From Acetobacter sp. DsW_063 (GTDB lineage: Bacteria > Pseudomonadota > Alphaproteobacteria > Acetobacterales > Acetobacteraceae), in assembly GCF_002153745.1 (NCBI RefSeq), contig NZ_JOPL01000071.1, positions 1 to 63,819 of the forward strand: a stretch of DNA of 63,819 nucleotides, in the 5' to 3' direction. Made by a program: the position numbers and the translations under genes. Each line of letters begins with the position of its first letter. Position 1 is the first letter of the stretch. Positions 15,752 to 25,020 of the stretch are shown in pieces. Below the pieces are notes generated by a model. That model had not been told where the DNA came from. It was given only the letters and a program-made list of their open reading frames with translations, and did no database searches.

Positions 15752-18700
15752 ATGACGCTACACGTCGCCCTGACGCACAAGACCACCTACGATTACGACC
15801 GGCCGGTGACGCTCGGCCCGCAGGTCATCCGTCTGCGTCCTGCGGCGCACGCCCGCACGAACGTCGTGTCCTACGCGCTCAAGATCGAGCCGGAACCGCA
15901 TTTTATCAACTGGATGCAGGACCCGTCCGGCAACTGGCAGGCCCGCGTCGTGTTCCCGGAGCGCGTCAACCATTTCCATGTCAGCGTCGACCTTGTCGCC
16001 GACATGGCGACGGTCAATCCGTTCGACTTCTTCCTTGAACCGGATGCGGAGCAGTGGCCGTTCACGTACGACCACGTGCTCGATCAGGAACTTGCGCCGT
16101 ATCGTCGGACCGAACCTCTCGGCCCGCTGTTGAGCGCCTTGCTTGACGGCGTGTCGCGCGAGCCGCGTCGGACAGTGGACATGCTGGTCGAACTTAATCG
16201 GGCGATTCAGCGACGTATCTCTTATGTCGTGCGTATGGAGCCTGGCGTCTGGACGCCGGAGGAGACGCTTGGCGAAGGGCGCGGTTCGTGCCGCGACAGC
16301 GCGTGGCTGCTGGTGCAGTTGCTGCGTCACCTTGGTTACGCGGCCCGGTTTGTGTCGGGGTATCTGATACAGCTCGCCGCCGACGAAAAGCCTGTGGAAG
16401 GCCCGAGCGGTCCTGAGGCGGACTTCACTGACCTTCATGCGTGGGCGGAGGTATATCTGCCCGGCGCCGGTTGGGTCGGACTTGATGCAACCTCGGGAAT
16501 GCTGGCGGGCGAGGGGCATATTCCGCTCGCTGCGACGCCGGAGCCGAGTTCTGCTGCGCCCATTTCCGGCGGCGTGGAGAAGTGCGAGACCGAATTCGGG
16601 TTCGAGATGTTTGTGACGCGCGTGGCCGAGACGCCGCGCACGACGATGCCTTACGCCGACGAAACGTGGCGCGATATCCTTGCTGCTGGTGAAGCGGTCG
16701 ACGCGCAGCTTGAGGCAGGCGACGTGCGTCTGACGATGGGTGGTGAGCCGACGTTCATCGCCGCCGCCGACATGGACGCGCCGGAATGGAATATCGAGGC
16801 GCTGGGTCCGACCAAGCGGGCATACGCGCAGCGGCTCCTGCATAAACTGATGCCGCTTTGGTCGCCCGGCGCGACCTATATGACGTTGTTCGGCAAGCAT
16901 TATCCGGGTGAGCAGCTGCCGCGCTGGGCGCTGAGCTGCTACTGGCGCGTGGACGGGGAGCCGGTGTGGCTCGACCGCACGCTCCTTGCGTCCGACGACG
17001 ATACAGATGACGCGACGGAGCATGACGCACGGCGCTTCGCGCGCTCGCTCGCGAAGCGTCTTGGTGTTGACGAGGAACTCGTAACGCCTGCGTACGAGGA
17101 CGTTCATTACTATCTGTGGAAAGAGCATCGGCTGCCTGCGAACGTGCTCGCCGAGGGTTCGAAGCTGAACGACCCGCTGGAGCGCGAACGCCTTGCGCGG
17201 GTGTTCGGGCGCGGACTGTCACGGGAATCGGGTTCGGTGTTGCCGCTGCGGGTTGAAGTGCGCGACGGCGTGCGGCGTTGGCGGTCGGGGCGCTGGTTTC
17301 TGCGCAGTGACACGATTTTCCTTGTTCCGGGCGACTCCTCAATTGGTTTTCGTCTGCCGCTGCACAGCCTGCCCTGGGCCGACGCAGAGAGCATCGAGCA
17401 ACAGTTCGAGCCCGACCCGTTCGCAGCGAAATCTCCCCTCCCGCCGCATCCGGCAGCCGTTCGTTACGCGTCGACCGCATACAGGGCCAGCGCGCCAGAT
17501 CGCATTGGCTCGCAGGGCGTTTTCCACGAGGGGCCGCAACGTCCCCAGCCAATGCTGTCGGATCTTCCGGCGCTACCGCCCTATCCCGTTGGCAAGCCCT
17601 GGCGCATCAATACGGAGACGGCGCTGGGCGAGCACCTTCTGGAGATCAATCGGGAAGAGCCGAACGTTGTCCGCACCGCGCTGACCGTCGAAGCGCGGGG
17701 TGGAATCCTGCACGTATTCTTCCCGCCGCTGTATGCGATCGAGGACTGGCTGGATCTATGCGCGCAAGTGGAAGCGACGGCAAACGAGTTTGGTCGCAAG
17801 GTCGTGCTGGAAGGCTACGCGCCGCCACGCGATCCGCGCGTCAAATCGTTCTCGATCACGCCGGACCCTGGCGTCATTGAGGTCAACGTGCATCCGGCGG
17901 CGAGTTGGGCGGAGCATGAGGAACGCAGCCGCCAGCTTTATGACGAGGCGCGCGGCGTCGGCCTGATCGCCGAAAAATTCCTTCTTGACGGCCGCCATGT
18001 CGGAACGGGCGGTGGCAACCACGTGGTGATGGGCGCGACGAGGCCGGAGGACAGTCCCTTCCTGCGCCGCCCTGACCTGCTGCGGTCGCTGGTGGGATTC
18101 TGGCACAATCACCCGTCGCTGTCCTACCTGTTCAGCGGCTTGTTCATCGGGCCAAGCTCCCAGCATCCGCGCATCGACGAGGCGCGGCAGGACGCGCTGT
18201 ATGAGCTTGAGATCGCGTTCCGGCAGGTGGACCGGCAGATTTTCACGCCGCCATGGCTGACCGATCGGCTGTTCCGTAACCTGTTCGCCGATATGACCGG
18301 CAACACGCACCGGACCGAGTTCTGCATCGACAAGTTGTATGCGCCGGAAAGCTCGTCCGGTCGTCTGGGGCTCGTGGAGTATCGCGCATTCGAGATGCCG
18401 CCGCATCACCGGATGGCGGCGGCGCAGAGCCTGTTGATGCGGGCCTGCGTCGCGGCGTTCTGGAAGACCCCATACGAGCGTCGTCTGGTTCGCTGGGGAA
18501 CGCGCCTGCACGACGATTTCATGTTGCCGCATTACGTCGAGCAGGATTTCCGCGACGCGATCGCAGAACTGACGCAGTTGGGCGCGCCGCTCGACGCCGA
18601 CTGGTTCGCGCCGCATTTCGAATTCCGGTTCCCTGAGATCGGCAATATCAGCGAACTTGGGATCACGCTTGAGCTTCGCCATGCGCTGGAGCCCTGGAAC

Positions 18701-19168
18701 ACACTTGCGGAAGAACCTGCCGCGGGCGGTACGGCGCGGTATGTCGACAGTTCTGTCGAGCGTGTGCAGGCGCGGGTCAGCGGCTGGGTCAGTGAACGCT
18801 ATGTTCTTGCCTGCAACGGGGTGACCGTGCCGGTGAGCGCAACGGAAAGGCAGGGTGAGTATGTGGGCGCCGTTCGTTTCAAGGCGTGGAATCCCCCCAG
18901 TTCCTTGCACCCGACGATCGGTGTCGAAACGCCCCTTATGTTCGATATCTACGACACATGGACGGGGCGGAGCGTCGGCGGGCTTACCTATCACGTCGTT
19001 CATCCGGGCGGCCGCAGTTACGACACCCGCCCGGTCAACGCGAACGAGGCGGAAGCGCGCCGCCGCACGCGGTTCTTCCCGATAGGTCACACGGTCGGAC
19101 CGATGGCGCCACCGCGTCAGGAACGGTCTCTGGAGCAACCGCGCACACTGGATCTGCGCCGTTTCTGA
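15752..19168 (+). CDS. Transglutaminase-like cysteine peptidase fused to DUF2126
   Basis: 1139 aa. GGAAAG lies six bases upstream of the ATG at 15752 (another ATG is at 15746). Residues 1-290 are a bacterial transglutaminase-like domain with its N-terminal beta domain (LTHKTTYDYDRPV) and catalytic triad: Cys180 in GRGSCRDSAW, His229 in LHAWAEVY and Asp245 in GLDATSG. The rest is DUF2126, with FTMGGEPTFIA-like MGGEPTFIAA, WRVDGEPVW, GGGNHVVMGA, HNHPSLSYLFSG, FRNLFADMTGNTHRTEFCIDKLY and VEYRAFEMPPH. The glutamate/His-rich signatures resemble an ATP-dependent ligase or glutamine-synthetase-like fold, though this is not certain. First gene of a same-strand cluster with a metallopeptidase, an ATP-grasp/alpha-E protein and a second transglutaminase. 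Such clusters were predicted from comparative genomics to make or modify peptides; the product is not known. Confidence 0.9.
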   Translation: MTLHVALTHKTTYDYDRPVTLGPQVIRLRPAAHARTNVVSYALKIEPEPHFINWMQDPSGNWQARVVFPERVNHFHVSVDLVADMATVNPFDFFLEPDAEQWPFTYDHVLDQELAPYRRTEPLGPLLSALLDGVSREPRRTVDMLVELNRAIQRRISYVVRMEPGVWTPEETLGEGRGSCRDSAWLLVQLLRHLGYAARFVSGYLIQLAADEKPVEGPSGPEADFTDLHAWAEVYLPGAGWVGLDATSGMLAGEGHIPLAATPEPSSAAPISGGVEKCETEFGFEMFVTRVAETPRTTMPYADETWRDILAAGEAVDAQLEAGDVRLTMGGEPTFIAAADMDAPEWNIEALGPTKRAYAQRLLHKLMPLWSPGATYMTLFGKHYPGEQLPRWALSCYWRVDGEPVWLDRTLLASDDDTDDATEHDARRFARSLAKRLGVDEELVTPAYEDVHYYLWKEHRLPANVLAEGSKLNDPLERERLARVFGRGLSRESGSVLPLRVEVRDGVRRWRSGRWFLRSDTIFLVPGDSSIGFRLPLHSLPWADAESIEQQFEPDPFAAKSPLPPHPAAVRYASTAYRASAPDRIGSQGVFHEGPQRPQPMLSDLPALPPYPVGKPWRINTETALGEHLLEINREEPNVVRTALTVEARGGILHVFFPPLYAIEDWLDLCAQVEATANEFGRKVVLEGYAPPRDPRVKSFSITPDPGVIEVNVHPAASWAEHEERSRQLYDEARGVGLIAEKFLLDGRHVGTGGGNHVVMGATRPEDSPFLRRPDLLRSLVGFWHNHPSLSYLFSGLFIGPSSQHPRIDEARQDALYELEIAFRQVDRQIFTPPWLTDRLFRNLFADMTGNTHRTEFCIDKLYAPESSSGRLGLVEYRAFEMPPHHRMAAAQSLLMRACVAAFWKTPYERRLVRWGTRLHDDFMLPHYVEQDFRDAIAELTQLGAPLDADWFAPHFEFRFPEIGNISELGITLELRHALEPWNTLAEEPAAGGTARYVDSSVERVQARVSGWVSERYVLACNGVTVPVSATERQGEYVGAVRFKAWNPPSSLHPTIGVETPLMFDIYDTWTGRSVGGLTYHVVHPGGRSYDTRPVNANEAEARRRTRFFPIGHTVGPMAPPRQERSLEQPRTLDLRRF

Positions 19169-19268
19169 ACGGCGTTCCTTCGGATGCCGGAAAAATAACG
19201 ACAGAAAGGAAACGACCGCACTGACGTGACGTTGTTAGGGCCTTAGCGGGATCCGGAGCCAGACGGTC

Positions 19269-20408
19269 ATGAAGTTGTTTTCCTGCCAGGCGTGCGGGCA
19301 GATGTTGTTCTTCGAGAATGTCCGGTGCGAGCGTTGTTCGCGTCGCGTCGGTTATTGCAGCGAAGGAGCGACGCTTCTTGCTCTGGACCCCGCTGACGGC
19401 GATGGCGGAGTGGGCGCGGGAGGATGGATTCCGGTCGGCGGGGACGCGTCGGCGCCCCGCATGTTTTGCGTCAATGCGGAGCAGGATGCTTGCAACTGGC
19501 TGGTGCCCGCCGGAACTGAAGATCAGTTTTGCGTCGCCTGCGCGTTCAACAGGGTTATTCCCGATCTGACGGTCGAGGGAAATCTTGAGTTGTGGCGCAA
19601 GCTTGAAGCGGCCAAGCACTATCTGATCTACAGCCTGCTTCTGTTGAAACTGCCGATCAAAAAGTCTGTCGAAGCTGCGGACGGTGGTTTGATTTTTGAC
19701 TTTATGGACGACCCTCCTGACGGGGAGGAAGGCCAGAAAGTGATGACGGGCCATGACGAGGGCGTCATTACAGTCGCGCTGCGAGAAGCGAATGACGCAG
19801 AACGCGAAAAGATGCGTCTGGAAATGGGCGAGTACTATCGCACAGTGCTAGGGCACTTCCGTCATGAAATCGGCCATTACTATTGGAATGTCCTCGTGCG
19901 GGATGCTGGACAGCTTGACGCGTGCCGCGCCGTGTTTGGTGACGACTCCCAGGATTATGGCGCGGCTTTGACCGCTCATTATGAAAACGGGCCGCCTGTC
20001 GGTTGGCAGGCGACGTATGTCAGTTCCTACGCCACGACGCACCCGTGGGAAGATTTCGCGGAAACGTGGGCGCATTACATACACATTGTCGATACATTGC
20101 AGACCGCGATGGCTTTTGGTCTTGTAGTCGACACGAGCACGCCCGAAGGTGATGGCGTGGAGCGTCATTTCAATTTCGATCCGTATTCGGCAGGATCTTT
20201 TGACGAAATCCTTAAGGCGTGGTTGCCGCTGACTGTCGTTGTCAATGCGCTCAATCGGTCCATGGGGCAGGCGGATCTCTATCCGTTCGTGATCACGCCA
20301 GAGATTGCGGAGAAGCTCCGCTTTATCCATCAGCTTGTGCATGGTCTGGTGCTTCCTGGAGCTTTGACGGAGGTTGTTTCGCAAGAACGGTCTGATACGA
20401 TGTCTTGA
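19269..20408 (+). CDS. Zinc-ribbon putative metallopeptidase
   Basis: 379 aa. The N-terminus carries a zinc ribbon: Cys6-x2-Cys9 and Cys20-x2-Cys23, plus CACGQ-like spacing. A mid-protein zinc site follows: FRHEIGHYYW with His199, Glu200 and His203 (an HExxH motif), and a downstream HPWEDFAETWAHYIHI segment that probably supplies the third ligand. This matches the family annotated as putative zinc-binding metallopeptidase, commonly found beside transglutaminase/ATP-grasp gene sets. It lies 100 bp after the DUF2126 gene. Its likely job is trimming or release of peptide substrates of the cluster; this is inferred from context only. Confidence 0.85.
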   Translation: MKLFSCQACGQMLFFENVRCERCSRRVGYCSEGATLLALDPADGDGGVGAGGWIPVGGDASAPRMFCVNAEQDACNWLVPAGTEDQFCVACAFNRVIPDLTVEGNLELWRKLEAAKHYLIYSLLLLKLPIKKSVEAADGGLIFDFMDDPPDGEEGQKVMTGHDEGVITVALREANDAEREKMRLEMGEYYRTVLGHFRHEIGHYYWNVLVRDAGQLDACRAVFGDDSQDYGAALTAHYENGPPVGWQATYVSSYATTHPWEDFAETWAHYIHIVDTLQTAMAFGLVVDTSTPEGDGVERHFNFDPYSAGSFDEILKAWLPLTVVVNALNRSMGQADLYPFVITPEIAEKLRFIHQLVHGLVLPGALTEVVSQERSDTMS

Positions 20409-20446
20409 AGAGTTTTATATATACCTAGAAGTAATTTGGGGGATGT

Positions 20447-21016
20447 ATGGTTGAGGTTCATTTTTCTGAGGGATTTAGATCTCGTCATATGTCCATTGGA
20501 AATCCTCGCTTTGATGTAATACAAAATCACCAAAACAGGCTTCCTGCTTATATGGGGGATTCCAACGAGGTAGAGCCCTACCTATTGGAAAACGATCCTG
20601 CGGCGGCGCAATCCATCAACCATAGCCGCCGCGCGGAGGAGGTGAATTACGCGAGGCACAACAAGTTTTTGCTAAAGAAAAGCAAACATGGCGTTCAGCT
20701 TGGGCCCTACGCTAATACCGGCTTGACGCCAATTGGCAAGAAAACTCCGAGTACGACTTTGGTTTTTAAAGATGCCGGTGGGGTTAAAGAGTTTGAAAAT
20801 TCTATATCCAAGGAAATTTCTATTTCAAAAATAAATGGCGATAAATTTATGATTGCGGTCGACCTGAAGTCTGCAACTTTAATCCAGTATAAAATGGACG
20901 GGTATCTTATGGACGGATCTTATAGCGCGGGGGGAGTCCGAGTTCAGATCGGTGGGGTTCTACGTTCTGGAGTCGCGACAGTAAATCATCTGGAAAATGC
21001 TGAGGGAATTAATTAA
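20447..21016 (+). CDS. Unrecognised 189-aa protein inside the transglutaminase/ATP-grasp cluster
   Basis: Starts MVEVHFSEGF with GGGGGA just upstream. I recognise no domain. There is no signal peptide or membrane segment; the protein is polar and basic in the middle (NKFLLKKSKHG), and the last 60 residues alternate hydrophobic and polar residues (KFMIAVDLKSATLIQYKM, GGVRVQIGGVL) like a small beta domain. The gene is clearly more AT-rich than the genes on either side, which suggests later insertion into the cluster. A bidirectional hairpin follows within 70 bp. It could be a substrate, a modifier or an unrelated inserted gene. Confidence 0.65.
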   Translation: MVEVHFSEGFRSRHMSIGNPRFDVIQNHQNRLPAYMGDSNEVEPYLLENDPAAAQSINHSRRAEEVNYARHNKFLLKKSKHGVQLGPYANTGLTPIGKKTPSTTLVFKDAGGVKEFENSISKEISISKINGDKFMIAVDLKSATLIQYKMDGYLMDGSYSAGGVRVQIGGVLRSGVATVNHLENAEGIN

Positions 21017-21445
21017 TTTGTTTCTGGTTCGTATGGGTTCTGTGGCTGTGGATTCGTATTTTTTGCTTCCTGAGAAAAGAGGCCCCCGGCTCTTGAGCCG
21101 GGGGCAGATTTCTTAAGGACACCTTAGCCGGGGGCGATGAGTTGCGATTAATTGCCTCCAGTCCTGACGGACGTGGCGTCGTCGCATGCAGGCTCAAATA
21201 TAGTCTGGCGTCGTATGGGGGAGGCGCTGATACAATTTCAGCGTGCGTATGTTTCGATGGAGGGCTGAGCGAAACAGAAATCGAGATCGGCAGCCGCTTT
21301 GTAAGTCCGACCAAGAAGCTGTAGCTCCGGAAATGTCGTCCAGCGTCTGTTTCGTATGCTATTGAAGCGTCGGAGCAGGTTCCTGTGACGCGGGCTTGTC
21401 GAGAGCATTGCGCACAGAACGGGCCACCCCTTAAAACGACTCCTT
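21017..21445. other. Intergenic stretch before the ATP-grasp gene
   Basis: Holds the GC-rich hairpin at 21082-21105 and a second copy of AGCCGGGGGC at about 21126-21135. No convincing gene; a 60-codon frame (21142-21324) lacks a ribosome site and has an unnatural composition. A promoter for the ATP-grasp gene is expected here but I cannot point to one with confidence. Confidence 0.4.
21082..21105. terminator. Hairpin terminator after the unrecognised gene
   Basis: GCCCCCGGCT (21082-21091) pairs perfectly with AGCCGGGGGC (21096-21105) around a CTTG loop. It is flanked by AAGA-type and TCTT sequences, so it may act in either direction. It likely ends transcription after the preceding gene. Confidence 0.65.
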
Positions 21446-24091
21446 ATGAACGAGACGATTCCCCTCGACGAGATGGTGGACGGTCGTGGCGGCGTTCGCC
21501 AGCACTGGCGACGGCTGCTCGCCGTGTTTTCCGATCTTGGTCACCGTGAACTGGCGGCTCGGAAGCGCCAGATCGCGGTGGCGCTGTCCGATCAGACCGG
21601 CTCGCCGCTGCCGATAGAGGCGTTGAGCGAGACGATCGAGGGGCGCGTCAAACCCCGCCGTTCGGACGTCGTGGCAGGTCAGAGCAAGCCTGTGATCTGC
21701 GATCCTCTGCCGATAATCCTGCGCGCCGAGGAATTTGCGGCGCTTGAGGCCGGGGTCATTCAGCGCGCGCGATTGGCGGAAAGCCTGTTGCACGATGTCT
21801 ACGGCAAGCGCGAGACCTTGGCTCTGGGCCTGTTGCCTCCGGCTCTCCTGTGGGCGAATGCCGGGTTCATGCGCGGAGGAGAGTTGGAGGGCCAGCACGG
21901 CCATTCCCGGCGTTTTCTGTCGTCTTTCGCCGTGGATGTAGTGCGCGAGCAGGACGGCGTCTGGCGGGTTCTGGCGGAACAGAGCGTCAGGCCGGACGGA
22001 GCGGGCGTTGCGATGGAGGCGCGCCGGCAGATGGTGCGTGTCGCGCCGGAATTTTTTTCCGGACAGGATTTACGCCGCCTGGGGCCATTTCTCGATATCT
22101 GGCAGGAATCGCTGCAGCGGGCCGCGCCCGAAGGATTGACGAATCCCGGTCTGGCGCTGCTGACGCCGGGGCCGCATTGCCGGGATTGGGGCGAGCATGT
22201 GATTCTCGCGCGCGAACTGGGCTGTGTTCTGGTCGAGGCCGGGGATCTGGCGGTTCGCGAAGGCGAGTTGTGGCTGAAGACCGTAAGAGGTCTTCGGCGT
22301 GTGGATGTTCTGCTCGCCCGTCAGGACGGGCGAGCCCTTGATCCGCTGGAGCCCGACGGGACCGGCGCGGGTGGCGTCACCGGTTTGCTGGACGCCGCTC
22401 GTGCAGGCACGGTCCGGCTGGTGAATGATCCGCGCAGCGGATTCGTCGAGGCGCCGGGGCTCGCGCCCTTCCTCGCGCCGTTGGCCAATAGGCTTCTTGG
22501 TGAAAATCTTCTGCTGGAAAACGCGGCTTCCGTCTGGTTGGGAGACGAAGCGGGGGAGAGGTGTCTGGAGGAGATTCTCCGCTCTGACTTGGAAACTCCT
22601 GCGAGACGGTCCGTTGCGTGGAAGATAGGGTCCGCGTTGGACCCGGCCGAGCCGTATCTGCGGATTTCGGAGCTGAGCGCCGTCGAGCGCGCTGAGGCGG
22701 TGGATCGGATTCGACGCGCTCCGTGGCGTTACGTGGCTCGCCCGGTTCTGGCCCCGTCAGTCGCGCCGACCGTCGGCGTGGCGGAGTTCGTGCCCAGACC
22801 GGTGACGATGAGGCTGTTCGCGGTCCACGATGGTGAGGACTGGACGGTAATGCCGGGCGGTCTTGCAAGCGTGTATGAAGACGCCGTCCCCACGAATGGG
22901 GACGCTCGCGAGCACGTCGTCAAGGACGTCTGGGTTCTCGTGAACGATCAGATCGCGCCTCGGGAACATCCGGTCCATCTCGCCACCCCGTTGCCGATTC
23001 GGCGCTCCCTGGGCGATCTCCCCAGCCGCGCTGCGGATGATTTTTTCTGGCTGGGCCGATATCTCGAACAGATCGACAGCGCCGCGCGACTTCTACGCGT
23101 TGTACTTGCGCATATGGCGGGTGGTGAGCCATCGCCAAGAGAGCGGGTCGATCTCGAGACGCTCGTGCGGGAACTGCGCGCGGTTGGCCTTATCGATGAA
23201 ATCCCGGCCTTCGGTTATGGGCTCTCCGCACTGACCCACACGCTCTCCCGGGCTATGGGAGAGCAGGGGTTGTTTGGGCGTATTTTGCGAAAAACTCTAC
23301 GACTTGTCCCAGAACTTTCTGATCGCCTGACGCGTGAGATGCGTGATTTCATTATCCACAACTCCAACGCCCTACTGGACAAGCTGGCGGCTGCGCCGGG
23401 CCGCAGCGAAGTGTCGCGATCCATCGCGCGCGTGACGGTAATCACCGACGCGTTGCTGGTGTACGGGGCGACGCTCTCGGGCCTTACGGCGGAAAACATG
23501 GTGCGTTCCGGCGGGCGGCAATTCCTTGATCTTGGCCGTAGAATCGAACGCGCGTCGCTGGTTCTGTCGTGCTGCGCGGGCGTTCTGGAGCAACCCGGCG
23601 TTTATCAGCGCGGGCGGATGGAGGCGGCGCTTCGGTTGATGCTGGAAATATGCGACAGCGTCATAACCTATCGCTCCCGTTATTTTGGCGTCGTGCAGCC
23701 TGCGCCAGTGCTCGACTTGCTGTTGCTTGATGCGGACAACCCGCGTGGCGCCGGTTTCCAGTTGGCGGCGTTGCGGGATTCTCTTGGTGAACTGGCCAAC
23801 GCTGGGGGGACAGCGCCGGCGGCGCAACGTGCGGCGTCGGGCGAATTGTCAGCCTCTGCAGCGCAGGTTCTGGATTCATTGACGATGGTTGTGGCGTCGG
23901 TGTTGGAGAGCCAGAATCAGGACCGCGCCGCAGCCGACGCGCCGGAGGCGCTGCGCAGCGCCTGCGCTTCGGTTCTTTCGTTGTCCGACCAGATTGGCCG
24001 CTGCTATTTCTCCGTACTGACCTCGCCGCGACTGGTCGGCATCATCGGCGACGATCTGGTGGCGGACAGCCATGACGAGGCGCTGGCATGA
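21446..24091 (+). CDS. Circularly permuted ATP-grasp protein fused to an alpha-E domain
   Basis: 881 aa. Residues from about 80 to 500 match the circularly permuted ATP-grasp type: FAALEAGVIQRARLAESLLHD-like start, LAEQSVRPDGAGVAMEARR, LLTPGPHCRDWGEHVILARELG, LVEAGDLAVREGELWLKT, VDVLLARQDGRALDPLE and NRLLGENLLLENAASVWLGD. Residues from about 520 to 875 are the alpha-E domain with its ER-type motifs: SRAADDFFWLGRYLEQID, where the expected Arg of the first motif is Gln, and a second intact one, FLDLGRRIERAS. In many genomes these are two adjacent genes; here they are one. Family prediction is an ATP-dependent amide ligase acting on a peptide or amino acid. The stop overlaps the next gene's start (ATGA). 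Confidence 0.9.
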   Translation: MNETIPLDEMVDGRGGVRQHWRRLLAVFSDLGHRELAARKRQIAVALSDQTGSPLPIEALSETIEGRVKPRRSDVVAGQSKPVICDPLPIILRAEEFAALEAGVIQRARLAESLLHDVYGKRETLALGLLPPALLWANAGFMRGGELEGQHGHSRRFLSSFAVDVVREQDGVWRVLAEQSVRPDGAGVAMEARRQMVRVAPEFFSGQDLRRLGPFLDIWQESLQRAAPEGLTNPGLALLTPGPHCRDWGEHVILARELGCVLVEAGDLAVREGELWLKTVRGLRRVDVLLARQDGRALDPLEPDGTGAGGVTGLLDAARAGTVRLVNDPRSGFVEAPGLAPFLAPLANRLLGENLLLENAASVWLGDEAGERCLEEILRSDLETPARRSVAWKIGSALDPAEPYLRISELSAVERAEAVDRIRRAPWRYVARPVLAPSVAPTVGVAEFVPRPVTMRLFAVHDGEDWTVMPGGLASVYEDAVPTNGDAREHVVKDVWVLVNDQIAPREHPVHLATPLPIRRSLGDLPSRAADDFFWLGRYLEQIDSAARLLRVVLAHMAGGEPSPRERVDLETLVRELRAVGLIDEIPAFGYGLSALTHTLSRAMGEQGLFGRILRKTLRLVPELSDRLTREMRDFIIHNSNALLDKLAAAPGRSEVSRSIARVTVITDALLVYGATLSGLTAENMVRSGGRQFLDLGRRIERASLVLSCCAGVLEQPGVYQRGRMEAALRLMLEICDSVITYRSRYFGVVQPAPVLDLLLLDADNPRGAGFQLAALRDSLGELANAGGTAPAAQRAASGELSASAAQVLDSLTMVVASVLESQNQDRAAADAPEALRSACASVLSLSDQIGRCYFSVLTSPRLVGIIGDDLVADSHDEALA

Positions 24092-25020
24092 TCTATCGCG
24101 TTCGTCATTCGACCGTGTACAGCTACGGAAATCCGGTCGACCTGGCCGCCCACGTGTTGCATGTAACGCCGCGAGATCTGCCGGGGCAGCGGGTGCTGTG
24201 GACGCGTCTCGATTGTGAGCCAACGCCGGTGAAGCGTCATGGTGGCGTCGATCATTTCGGAAATCCTGTCTTTTGGCTTTTCCATGAGGAACCGCATACG
24301 CGGTTCGAAATCGTGGCCGTATCGGAAGTTGACGTGGCGTTTGCGCCTCCGCCTCCGCCCCCGACGGAGGAGATATCTCCATGGGAGTTTATTCGAGACT
24401 GTTCAAGATTTGATGCTGATGTTTCTCAGTTTCTGTTTGACGGATCGATGTGTCGCGCCTCCGAAAAAGTTGGCGCCTATGCAGCGCAATCTTTCCCGGC
24501 GGGTCGGTCGCTGCTCGAAGGCGTTCTCGATTTCAATATACGCGTTTTCAAGGAGTTTCGTTTCCGCTCCGGCGTCACGTCATTGCGGACAACGGCGGAC
24601 GAGGTGCTGGCGCGGCGGGAAGGGGTTTGTCAGGACTTTACGCACCTGATGCTCAGTGGATTGCGTTGGCTCGGTCTGCCGGCCCGATATATGTCGGGTT
24701 ACATTCGTACGCGCCCGCCGCAGGGGCAAAAGCGTCGTCTGGGTGCTGATGTTTCGCATGCATGGGTCGGAGTCTGGCTGGGGCCAGAGTTTGGGTGGCT
24801 TGGCTTGGATCCAACGAATGGGATCGTGGTGCGAGACGAGCATGTGGTGTTGGGGTGGGGCAGGGATTACGCGGATATTAGCCCGGTTCGCGGTCTGATC
24901 CTTGGCGGCGGCGGCGATGCGCTGCGCGTTGGCGTCGATCTCGTGCCGGTCGAGGAGTGGGATGAGGACCCGACCTTGCGGGCGTTGACCGCGCCGCGTC
25001 AATCCGTAGACGCGGGCTGA
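24088..25020 (+). CDS. Transglutaminase-like peptidase, second copy of the cluster
   Basis: 310 aa; its ATG overlaps the ATP-grasp stop codon by 4 bp, so the two are translationally coupled. The N-terminal domain starts MIYRVRHSTVYSYGNPV, the usual beginning for this family. Catalytic triad: Cys181 in REGVCQDFTHL, His224 in VSHAWVGV and Asp241 in GLDPTNG. It ends with GRDYADISPVRG, a stretch found in this bacterial transglutaminase subfamily, which more likely acts as a cysteine peptidase or amidase than as a crosslinker. Together with the first transglutaminase it flanks the metallopeptidase and ligase genes. Confidence 0.92.
   Translation: MIYRVRHSTVYSYGNPVDLAAHVLHVTPRDLPGQRVLWTRLDCEPTPVKRHGGVDHFGNPVFWLFHEEPHTRFEIVAVSEVDVAFAPPPPPPTEEISPWEFIRDCSRFDADVSQFLFDGSMCRASEKVGAYAAQSFPAGRSLLEGVLDFNIRVFKEFRFRSGVTSLRTTADEVLARREGVCQDFTHLMLSGLRWLGLPARYMSGYIRTRPPQGQKRRLGADVSHAWVGVWLGPEFGWLGLDPTNGIVVRDEHVVLGWGRDYADISPVRGLILGGGGDALRVGVDLVPVEEWDEDPTLRALTAPRQSVDAG

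Follow-up and report, generated by a model that had tools for sequence, protein, structure and literature searches.

Known systems and gene content of the locus

Bacterial systems that combine amidoligases with ATP-grasp ligases have been described by comparative genomics (Iyer, Burroughs and Aravind 2008, 2009; Valas and Bourne 2008), and the same protein families make up a gene cluster of Acetobacter sp. DsW_063. The cluster lies in the window, the whole 63 819-nucleotide stretch that was analysed (NZ_JOPL01000071.1, here contig C17), which belongs to an incomplete genome of 3.03 Mb that is 69 % complete. An operon of ATP-grasp, alpha-E, transglutaminase and Anbu genes has been credited to Iyer 2009 together with Valas and Bourne 2008 (PMC5666114) or to Iyer 2009 (PMC6376114), and the fusion of a transglutaminase to a glutamine synthetase (GS)-like ligase (Rv2566-type) has likewise been described (PMC2588565); these and the other papers below are cited from the available sections of their open-licence texts. 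The protein families, the prediction of peptide synthesis and nitrogen regulation in single species are already known. A first-pass annotation, made from the sequence of the window, had presented the cluster as undescribed biology, which is too strong a description given that the fusion, the operon and an NtrC regulon have been published (PMC2588565, PMC5666114, PMC6376114, PMC5491218). It had also held that no product is established, and none was found in the open-licence literature examined. With somewhat less than even confidence, we read the cluster as the outer of two loci that encode a system of amide-bond ligation and hydrolysis, probably located in the cytosol. The core of the system would be GA, a stand-alone circularly permuted ATP-grasp ligase whose gene lies next to one for an alpha-E protein, on a different contig of the same genome.

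The window genes assigned to this system or to its optional partners are listed below with the supporting evidence in parentheses.

15752–19168, + strand: TgD, transglutaminase-like hydrolase domain fused to DUF2126, a predicted GS-fold carboxylate-amine ligase, 1138 aa (Pfam, predicted fold)
19269–20408, + strand: Mx, zinc ribbon and Peptidase_Mx metallopeptidase, 379 aa, optional partner (Pfam, distribution)
21446–24091, + strand: GE, circularly permuted ATP-grasp ligase (type B) fused to alpha-E, 881 aa (Pfam CP_ATPgrasp_2 and Alpha-E; PDB 3n6x; type B residues)
24088–25020, + strand: Tg2, transglutaminase-like hydrolase, 310 aa, overlapping GE by 4 bp (Pfam Bact_transglu_N and Transglut_core; PDB 3isr, 6g49; GE–Tg2 pairing elsewhere)

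Together with a 189-aa open reading frame (ORF) between Mx and GE, these are the five forward-strand ORFs of the first-pass annotation, and their coordinates and families were confirmed by the ORF list and Pfam, as was the 4-bp overlap of the second transglutaminase gene with the ATP-grasp/alpha-E gene. The Pfam scan assigned Bact_transglu_N, Transglut_core and DUF2126 (1243.7 bits) to TgD and Zn_ribbon_DZR_6 and Peptidase_Mx (356.4 bits) to Mx, and none of the five proteins had an NCBIfam match at E≤0.001. TgD shares 98 % identity with a protein named Acetobacter sacchari. The highest 19-residue hydropathy mean among the cluster proteins was 1.51, so a cytosolic location is likely.

Co-occurrence with the stand-alone ATP-grasp ligase

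Gene content was compared across 120 genomes of the order, in which the type of each CP_ATPgrasp_2 match was assigned from its score together with its open frame; for a few long frames only the score was used. A single broken copy apart, type A (GA) scored 520–564 bits, and type B (GE) scored 163–417 bits in frames of at least 740 aa. DUF2126 was found in 45 genomes, GA in 85, GE in 42 and Mx in 60. All 45 DUF2126 genomes carried GA, and none of the 35 genomes without GA carried DUF2126. Likewise, all 42 GE genomes had DUF2126; the two genes were within 12 kb in 31 genomes, on different contigs in nine and farther apart in two, and because 11/42 genomes keep them apart in this way, their co-occurrence extends beyond linkage. 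All genomes of this search carry one family label, and p-values from it overstate independence.

The same nesting was observed in a phylum sample of 249 genomes, where a second ligase was scored as at least two ATP-grasp matches per genome. GA was present in 71/71 DUF2126 genomes, DUF2126 in none of the 118 genomes without GA (five of these with weaker ATP-grasp matches), and at least two ATP-grasps in 67 of the 71. GA, a ligase outside the window that the first-pass annotation missed, therefore accompanies every sampled DUF2126 genome, and its deletion should disable the rest of the system. The families themselves are very widespread, with at least 8000 protein clusters matched in the protein search. 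No report of GA dependence or of cross-lineage sigma-54-like sites was found in searches of an open-licence library.

Bact_transglu_N was absent from the 35 genomes of the order without GA and present in one copy in 39 of the 40 with GA but without DUF2126 (the remaining genome, G058, had none). The 45 DUF2126 genomes had two copies in 24 cases, three in 19 and four in two. Among the 20 Acetobacter genomes, two copies were found in 6/6 with DUF2126 and one in 13/14 others. In two DUF2126-free Acetobacter loci (L025 in G048 and L026 in G043), a stand-alone transglutaminase gene was divergent from GA, with Mx behind. Its product was nearer to the transglutaminase domain of TgD (44–46 %, 255–275 bits) than to Tg2 or the transglutaminases of Anbu operons, which suggests that the DUF2126 domain has been either gained or lost in Acetobacter. 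The co-occurrence check proposed in the first-pass annotation was thus borne out beyond linkage for TgD, GE and Tg2 but not for Mx, which was independent of DUF2126 in the order.

Two small genomes of one genus (loci L169 in G155 and L170 in G182) had TgD followed by Anbu, with GA present and no fused GE found, the smallest DUF2126 set seen.

Gene order in other loci

Gene order was compared in the best 80 loci of a scan (the named loci), which carry 57 labels; labels of metagenome-assembled genomes (MAGs) may be misbinned. Tg2 lay behind GE in 59 of the 60 named loci with GE downstream of TgD, and 67/80 loci had room. The order TgD–GE–Tg2 was seen in many Pseudomonadota and in MAG contigs labelled Verrucomicrobia, Fibrobacteres and others. 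GA was located at most 6 kb upstream of TgD, on either strand, in 27 of the 64 named loci with room. GA, alpha-E, TgD, GE and Tg2 were found together on the Enterobacter roggenkampii plasmid p1_120063 (NZ_CP116251.1, L002, 6603–15794), and a Caballeronia plasmid carried the same array with Mx between.

The plasmid with the Enterobacter roggenkampii array is 90 kb long and comes from a blood isolate; the array is flanked by transposase genes, and arsC is nearby. This position indicates that the system can be mobile.

Additional conserved neighbours were considered as parts of the system and rejected as lineage synteny or chance. The widest unassigned group in the 80 named loci, of which only 43 have more than 5 kb before and more than 3 kb after the core, was ComEC, with 11 labels from Comamonadaceae and Burkholderiales relatives. 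Others included ABC ATPases and GGDEF proteins with 8 labels each, AMP-binding enzymes with 6, a YjgF protein and a subunit of a topoisomerase, and the distance, side and strand of the ABC, GGDEF and AMP-binding neighbours all varied.

Predicted ligase folds and conserved residues

No GS-family sequence match was found in the 1138-aa TgD, in which the Pfam scan recognized only DUF2126 and the two transglutaminase domains. The predicted structure of TgD was moderate (predicted local distance difference test, pLDDT, 72.4; predicted template modelling score, pTM, 0.66), and the DUF2126 part alone was used for structure comparison. It matched the GS fold, with GmaS and 1-naphthylamine GS among the matches. 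DUF2126 is accordingly modelled with a GS ligase fold, a point that the first-pass annotation missed, and TgD is a fusion of a transglutaminase-like domain to a GS-like ligase. The transglutaminase residues C180, H229 and D245 of TgD were invariant in 35 sequences, and the earlier description of two cysteine peptidases in the cluster is fair by family.

In the source genome, GA is located on contig C32 and is followed by its own separate alpha-E gene; no transglutaminase match was present near it in the 11.6 kb read, up to the contig end. In a comparison of 33 GA and 60 GE sequences, 37 of the 124 GA-invariant columns were conserved in 90 % or more of the GE sequences. Residues D367-D368-K369 of GA are replaced in GE, most often by E, S and P, which suggests that the GE substrate differs from that of GA. 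The relative of GE in the PDB, 3n6x, is named a putative glutathionylspermidine synthase.

In Acetobacter genome G025 (C1:1709225–1712126), the GA match was in three pieces with short frames, owing either to decay of the core ligase gene or to an error in sequencing. Relatives of the ATP-grasp/alpha-E proteins were also found in two records filed as ‘Bacteriophage sp.’ from human faeces (MT835541.1, 10660–12537; MT835738.1, 15278–16660), with 33 and 30 % identity over 68 and 56 % of the query, respectively; these records may be misfiled contigs of bacteria. The ATP-grasp proteins in the available sections of PMC13207237 and PMC8305402 could not be identified as GA.

Optional peptidases

The first-pass annotation had included the zinc peptidase in the cluster, and its distribution was not that of a fixed member. 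In the order, Mx was present in 26/45 genomes with DUF2126 and 34/75 without (p=0.26). In the phylum sample the two were associated (24/71 DUF2126 genomes versus 10/178 others), yet 47/71 DUF2126 genomes were without Mx. Mx is an optional partner. GA was present in 59 of the 60 Mx genomes of the order and in 33/34 of the phylum sample, and in the order at most 12 kb separated Mx from GA in 28 of the 33 genomes with GA and Mx but without DUF2126, compared to 5/26 with DUF2126.

A search with PF00227 gave mostly one strong copy per genome, taken for HslV, and an Anbu protein was hence used as query; weak second PF00227 matches were Anbu in two genomes only (G093 and G065). Of the 84 phylum-sample genomes in which Anbu was found, 82 had GA; one of the two exceptions, G267, has a weaker ATP-grasp match. 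No Anbu match was found in the source genome, at 69 % completeness, and none among the five window genes. Anbu was adjoined by GA, alpha-E and transglutaminase genes in L175, L179, L181 and L183 and by GA and alpha-E genes in L174 and L182. A role of Anbu and Mx as alternative peptidases was rejected, as 25 of 131 GA genomes had both and 8 had Mx only (p=0.10). Neither was present in 23/71 DUF2126 genomes of the phylum sample.

Nitrogen response and sigma-54-like sites

Sigma-54-like sites were defined as TGGCAC-N5-TTGCW with GG and GC exact and at most one mismatch, within 250 bp upstream of a gene, with wrong spacings of 3, 4, 6 and 7 as controls; gene starts were longest-ORF starts, and site distances are rough. 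Such a site preceded TgD in 18/79 named loci, compared to 0/79 for each wrong spacing, and in 14/56 when one locus per label was counted. The 14 labels were nine beta-proteobacterial, three alpha-proteobacterial and two Verrucomicrobia MAGs. As background, 0.85 % of 6000 random 380-bp segments of the named loci held such a site. For GA the count was 2/31 (spacer 7: 1/31), rising at two mismatches to 11/31 against 0–2 for the other spacers, and for genes inside the operon it was 0/69 for GE (spacer 6: 1/69), 1/71 for Tg2 and 0/30 for alpha-E. The signal before TgD was weaker in the phylum sample (3/25; spacer 3: 1/25).

Published expression data are mostly in agreement with such sites. In Burkholderia cenocepacia H111, I35_5080-83 (BCAM1233-1236; DUF404/407, DUF403, transglutaminase and a large transglutaminase protein) are among the common sigma-54 and NtrC targets and were reduced by log2 6.0–9.4 in an ntrC mutant, and the same NtrC regulon includes urease, urea transport and putrescine/spermidine transport genes (PMC5491218). 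At the corresponding locus of another strain (L173), a one-mismatch site lay 48 bp into the longest GA ORF, a position that probably precedes the real GA start. In wild-type Pseudomonas putida, PP_2686-2688 rose 11- to 15-fold on nitrogen limitation, attributed to NtrB/NtrC (PMC7801951), and PP_2685 and PP_2688 were higher on nitrate than on ammonium (PMC8050072). The available sections of a Caulobacter NtrC study mention only a different transglutaminase, hvyA (PMC10274813). In the order, rpoN was present in 44/45 DUF2126 genomes versus 28/40 with GA only (Acetobacter, 5/6 versus 3/14), an association that may be partly due to genome size and ancestry. The promoter sites and regulon data indicate when to look for the function, namely under nitrogen limitation.

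Proposed function and alternative explanations

The observed gene content, nesting on GA, GE–Tg2 pairing and sigma-54-like sites of other lineages, together with the GS fold of the model, are most economically accounted for by a reversible amide-forming system in which a hydrolase is joined to its ligase by fusion (TgD) or gene overlap (GE–Tg2). GA and its alpha-E protein would form the core, and TgD (GS-fold amidoligase with cysteine hydrolase) and GE–Tg2 (second ATP-grasp/alpha-E with its own cysteine hydrolase) an add-on. Each ligase would use ATP to activate a carboxylate as an acyl phosphate and couple this to an amine. The resulting amide would be cut or edited by the transglutaminase-like partner of that ligase, and Mx or Anbu, where present, would trim the product. 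The ligase–hydrolase couples would thereby build a conjugate, of peptide, amine or protein-linked type, and take it apart again, following the supply of nitrogen between shortage and plenty. We infer the ligase activity of the cluster’s own proteins, the pairing of making with cutting, the class of substrate and a nitrogen response in Acetobacter. Direct biochemistry is sparse: an ATP-grasp protein of the Anbu operon releases orthophosphate from ATP (PMC6376114). Given the nitrogen control of the genes, the purpose is likely to be nitrogen storage, scavenging or turnover. The cycle of a ligase and peptidases proposed in the first-pass annotation survives in part: the chemistry fits and TgD, GE and Tg2 co-occur, but Mx is not fixed, and the GS fold and GA had been overlooked.

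A more specific and doubtful version is a nitrogen-starvation conjugation cycle distinct from pupylation, in which the core ligase would make an amide conjugate and the nested add-on would extend or branch it, under sigma-54/NtrC control in several lineages. If true, this would provide a reversible nitrogen reserve or protein mark. The role of the families was predicted in 2008–2009; GA dependence and nitrogen timing make the function testable, and the latter may in part account for the meagre results of assays on Anbu by itself.

Several observations weigh against the reversible amide-forming system. GE is without the GA-invariant D367-D368-K369, and its activity may differ or be weak. Three of the 45 DUF2126 genomes of the order (G004, G061, G109) had neither GE nor any second ATP-grasp, and 4/71 of the phylum sample had no second ATP-grasp, two of them with DUF2126 at a contig end. 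Conversely, eight DUF2126-free genomes of the phylum sample had two ATP-grasps with alpha-E in a frame of more than 800 aa, so fused GE can occur without DUF2126. In the window, no sigma-54 site preceded TgD, Mx, the 189-aa ORF or GE (best, five mismatches), and among 25 Acetobacteraceae loci a site was found in none at up to one mismatch and in two at two mismatches. PP_2686-2688, like the urt genes, still rose in a P. putida rpoN mutant, by 14- to 20-fold, so this dataset gives no support for sigma-54 dependence there, and PP_2685 (Anbu) rose only 1.12-fold in the wild type on nitrogen limitation (PMC7801951). Operon expression has been reported as unchanged under various conditions, with Anbu induction on nitrogen limitation also noted (PMC5666114). 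Finally, Anbu proteins have shown no peptidase activity, and a specific interaction of Anbu with other operon proteins was not detected (PMC6376114).

The last result also bears on protein tagging for turnover, a type of reading credited to earlier papers by PMC6376114 (its references 15 and 16), in which the ligases would attach a peptide and Anbu, Mx and the cysteine hydrolases would remove the tag or degrade the product. Tagging is consistent with the adjacency of Anbu to GA and alpha-E in L174, L175, L179 and L181–L183 (not all with a transglutaminase), with GA in nearly all Anbu genomes, and with the placement of the DUF2126 ligase in the superfamily of the pupylation ligase (PMC2588565). 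However, no Pup-like small protein was present among the listed ORF groups, and PMC2588565 likewise reports none. Small ORFs (20–100 aa) were grouped from the gaps of the 80 named loci and from 700 bp on either side, and the groups listed, which were the eight widest, all carried Comamonadaceae labels. The lack of an Anbu match in the incomplete source genome and the DUF2126 genomes without both peptidases likewise make tagging unlikely.

Scavenging of amines or peptides by gamma-glutamylation, in which a ligase would capture a nitrogen compound on glutamate and hydrolases would release the nitrogen, also appears improbable. Putrescine use (Puu) is such a gamma-glutamylation pathway. The fold matches of the DUF2126 model to GmaS (methylamine use) and 1-naphthylamine GS and the name of 3n6x would fit this explanation. 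So would the co-regulation by NtrC with urease, urea and polyamine transport genes (PMC5491218) and an association with urea domains in marine metagenomes (PMC3597751). However, no transporter or catabolic gene was found at a fixed place, as oligopeptide-type ABC ATPases occurred in 8/57 labels, at 1.3–5.7 kb and on varying side and strand. Moreover, three ligases and at least two hydrolases exceed the need of such pathways, and the fold shows no substrate.

Dedicated synthesis of a small peptide, either a secondary metabolite or a product like the ribosomally synthesized and post-translationally modified peptides, is very unlikely. Several amide ligases and peptidases do share one cluster, but no small ORF among the groups listed was common beyond Comamonadaceae labels, no exporter or tailoring gene was kept adjacent, and the distribution is very broad and always with GA. 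A chance neighbourhood of unrelated enzymes, suggested by the independence of Mx and the inserted 189-aa ORF, is hardly credible and is contradicted for TgD, GE, Tg2 and GA by the presence of DUF2126 in every GE genome of the order, including those with the two genes far apart, and by the TgD–GE–Tg2 order kept in many genera; it stands for the 189-aa ORF and partly for Mx.

Insertion and probable transcription units in the source genome

Two further features lie between Mx and GE.

20447–21016, + strand: 189-aa ORF without family, lineage-specific insertion outside the system (one match, 99 % identical; trough in G+C content; 92-bp gap in G045)
21082–21105, matched on both strands: terminator-like hairpin of 10 pairs, 9 of them G–C (consensus scan)

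The 189-aa ORF had a single match in the protein search, 99 % identical, and the close relative G100 carries the same ORF beside a cluster 97–99 % identical to that of the window. The G+C content at the ORF is 0.456, compared to about 0.64 around it, and the Mx–GE spacing is 1037 bp in the window versus 92 bp in another Acetobacter, G045. On these grounds, the ORF is an insertion and not a member of the system. The hairpin falls inside a 429-bp gap upstream of GE; the consensus scan found 15 hairpins in the 10-kb region versus 9.9 expected by shuffles. The cluster had been called tightly organized, which is at odds with the GC-poor ORF, the hairpin and the gap. Insertion and hairpin probably split the cluster into two transcription units in the source genome.

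The Acetobacter G045 locus (L028, 7298–8716) has a Tad/VWA-domain protein gene between TgD and Mx, indicating that the cluster gaps collect unrelated genes.

Comparison with known systems

Features of the Iyer/Aravind system are present in both loci of the source genome, with CP_ATPgrasp_2 in GE and GA and alpha-E fused in GE but separate beside GA. Relative to the Anbu operon, the cluster lacks Anbu but includes the fused type B ligase together with Tg2, Mx and the 189-aa ORF, and its GA–alpha-E pair is on another contig. Glutathionylspermidine synthetase/amidase pairs an ATP-grasp ligase with a CHAP-type cysteine amidase. By analogy, the window would resemble it in the pairing of ligase and hydrolase, and 3n6x carries the putative synthase name, whereas the window hydrolases are transglutaminase-like and none of the five proteins has a CHAP-type amidase domain. 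Rv2566 is presumably adjoined by Rv2569c. The latter has been reported as a serine protease (PMC11081392).

Pupylation (PafA/Dop-Pup) shares the carboxylate-amine ligase superfamily with the window (PMC2588565) but differs in its Pup protein, which had no counterpart among the ORF groups listed, and Pfam gives DUF2126 and no pupylation-ligase family. The families of the two loci in the source genome correspond to those of B. cenocepacia H111 I35_5080-83, comprising GA (DUF404/407), alpha-E (DUF403), a transglutaminase and the large transglutaminase protein, and L173 has GA, alpha-E, a weak transglutaminase match and TgD in the same order. In contrast to the window version, which is split and without a sigma-54-like site, L173 is contiguous, with GE and Tg2 behind TgD and such a site present.

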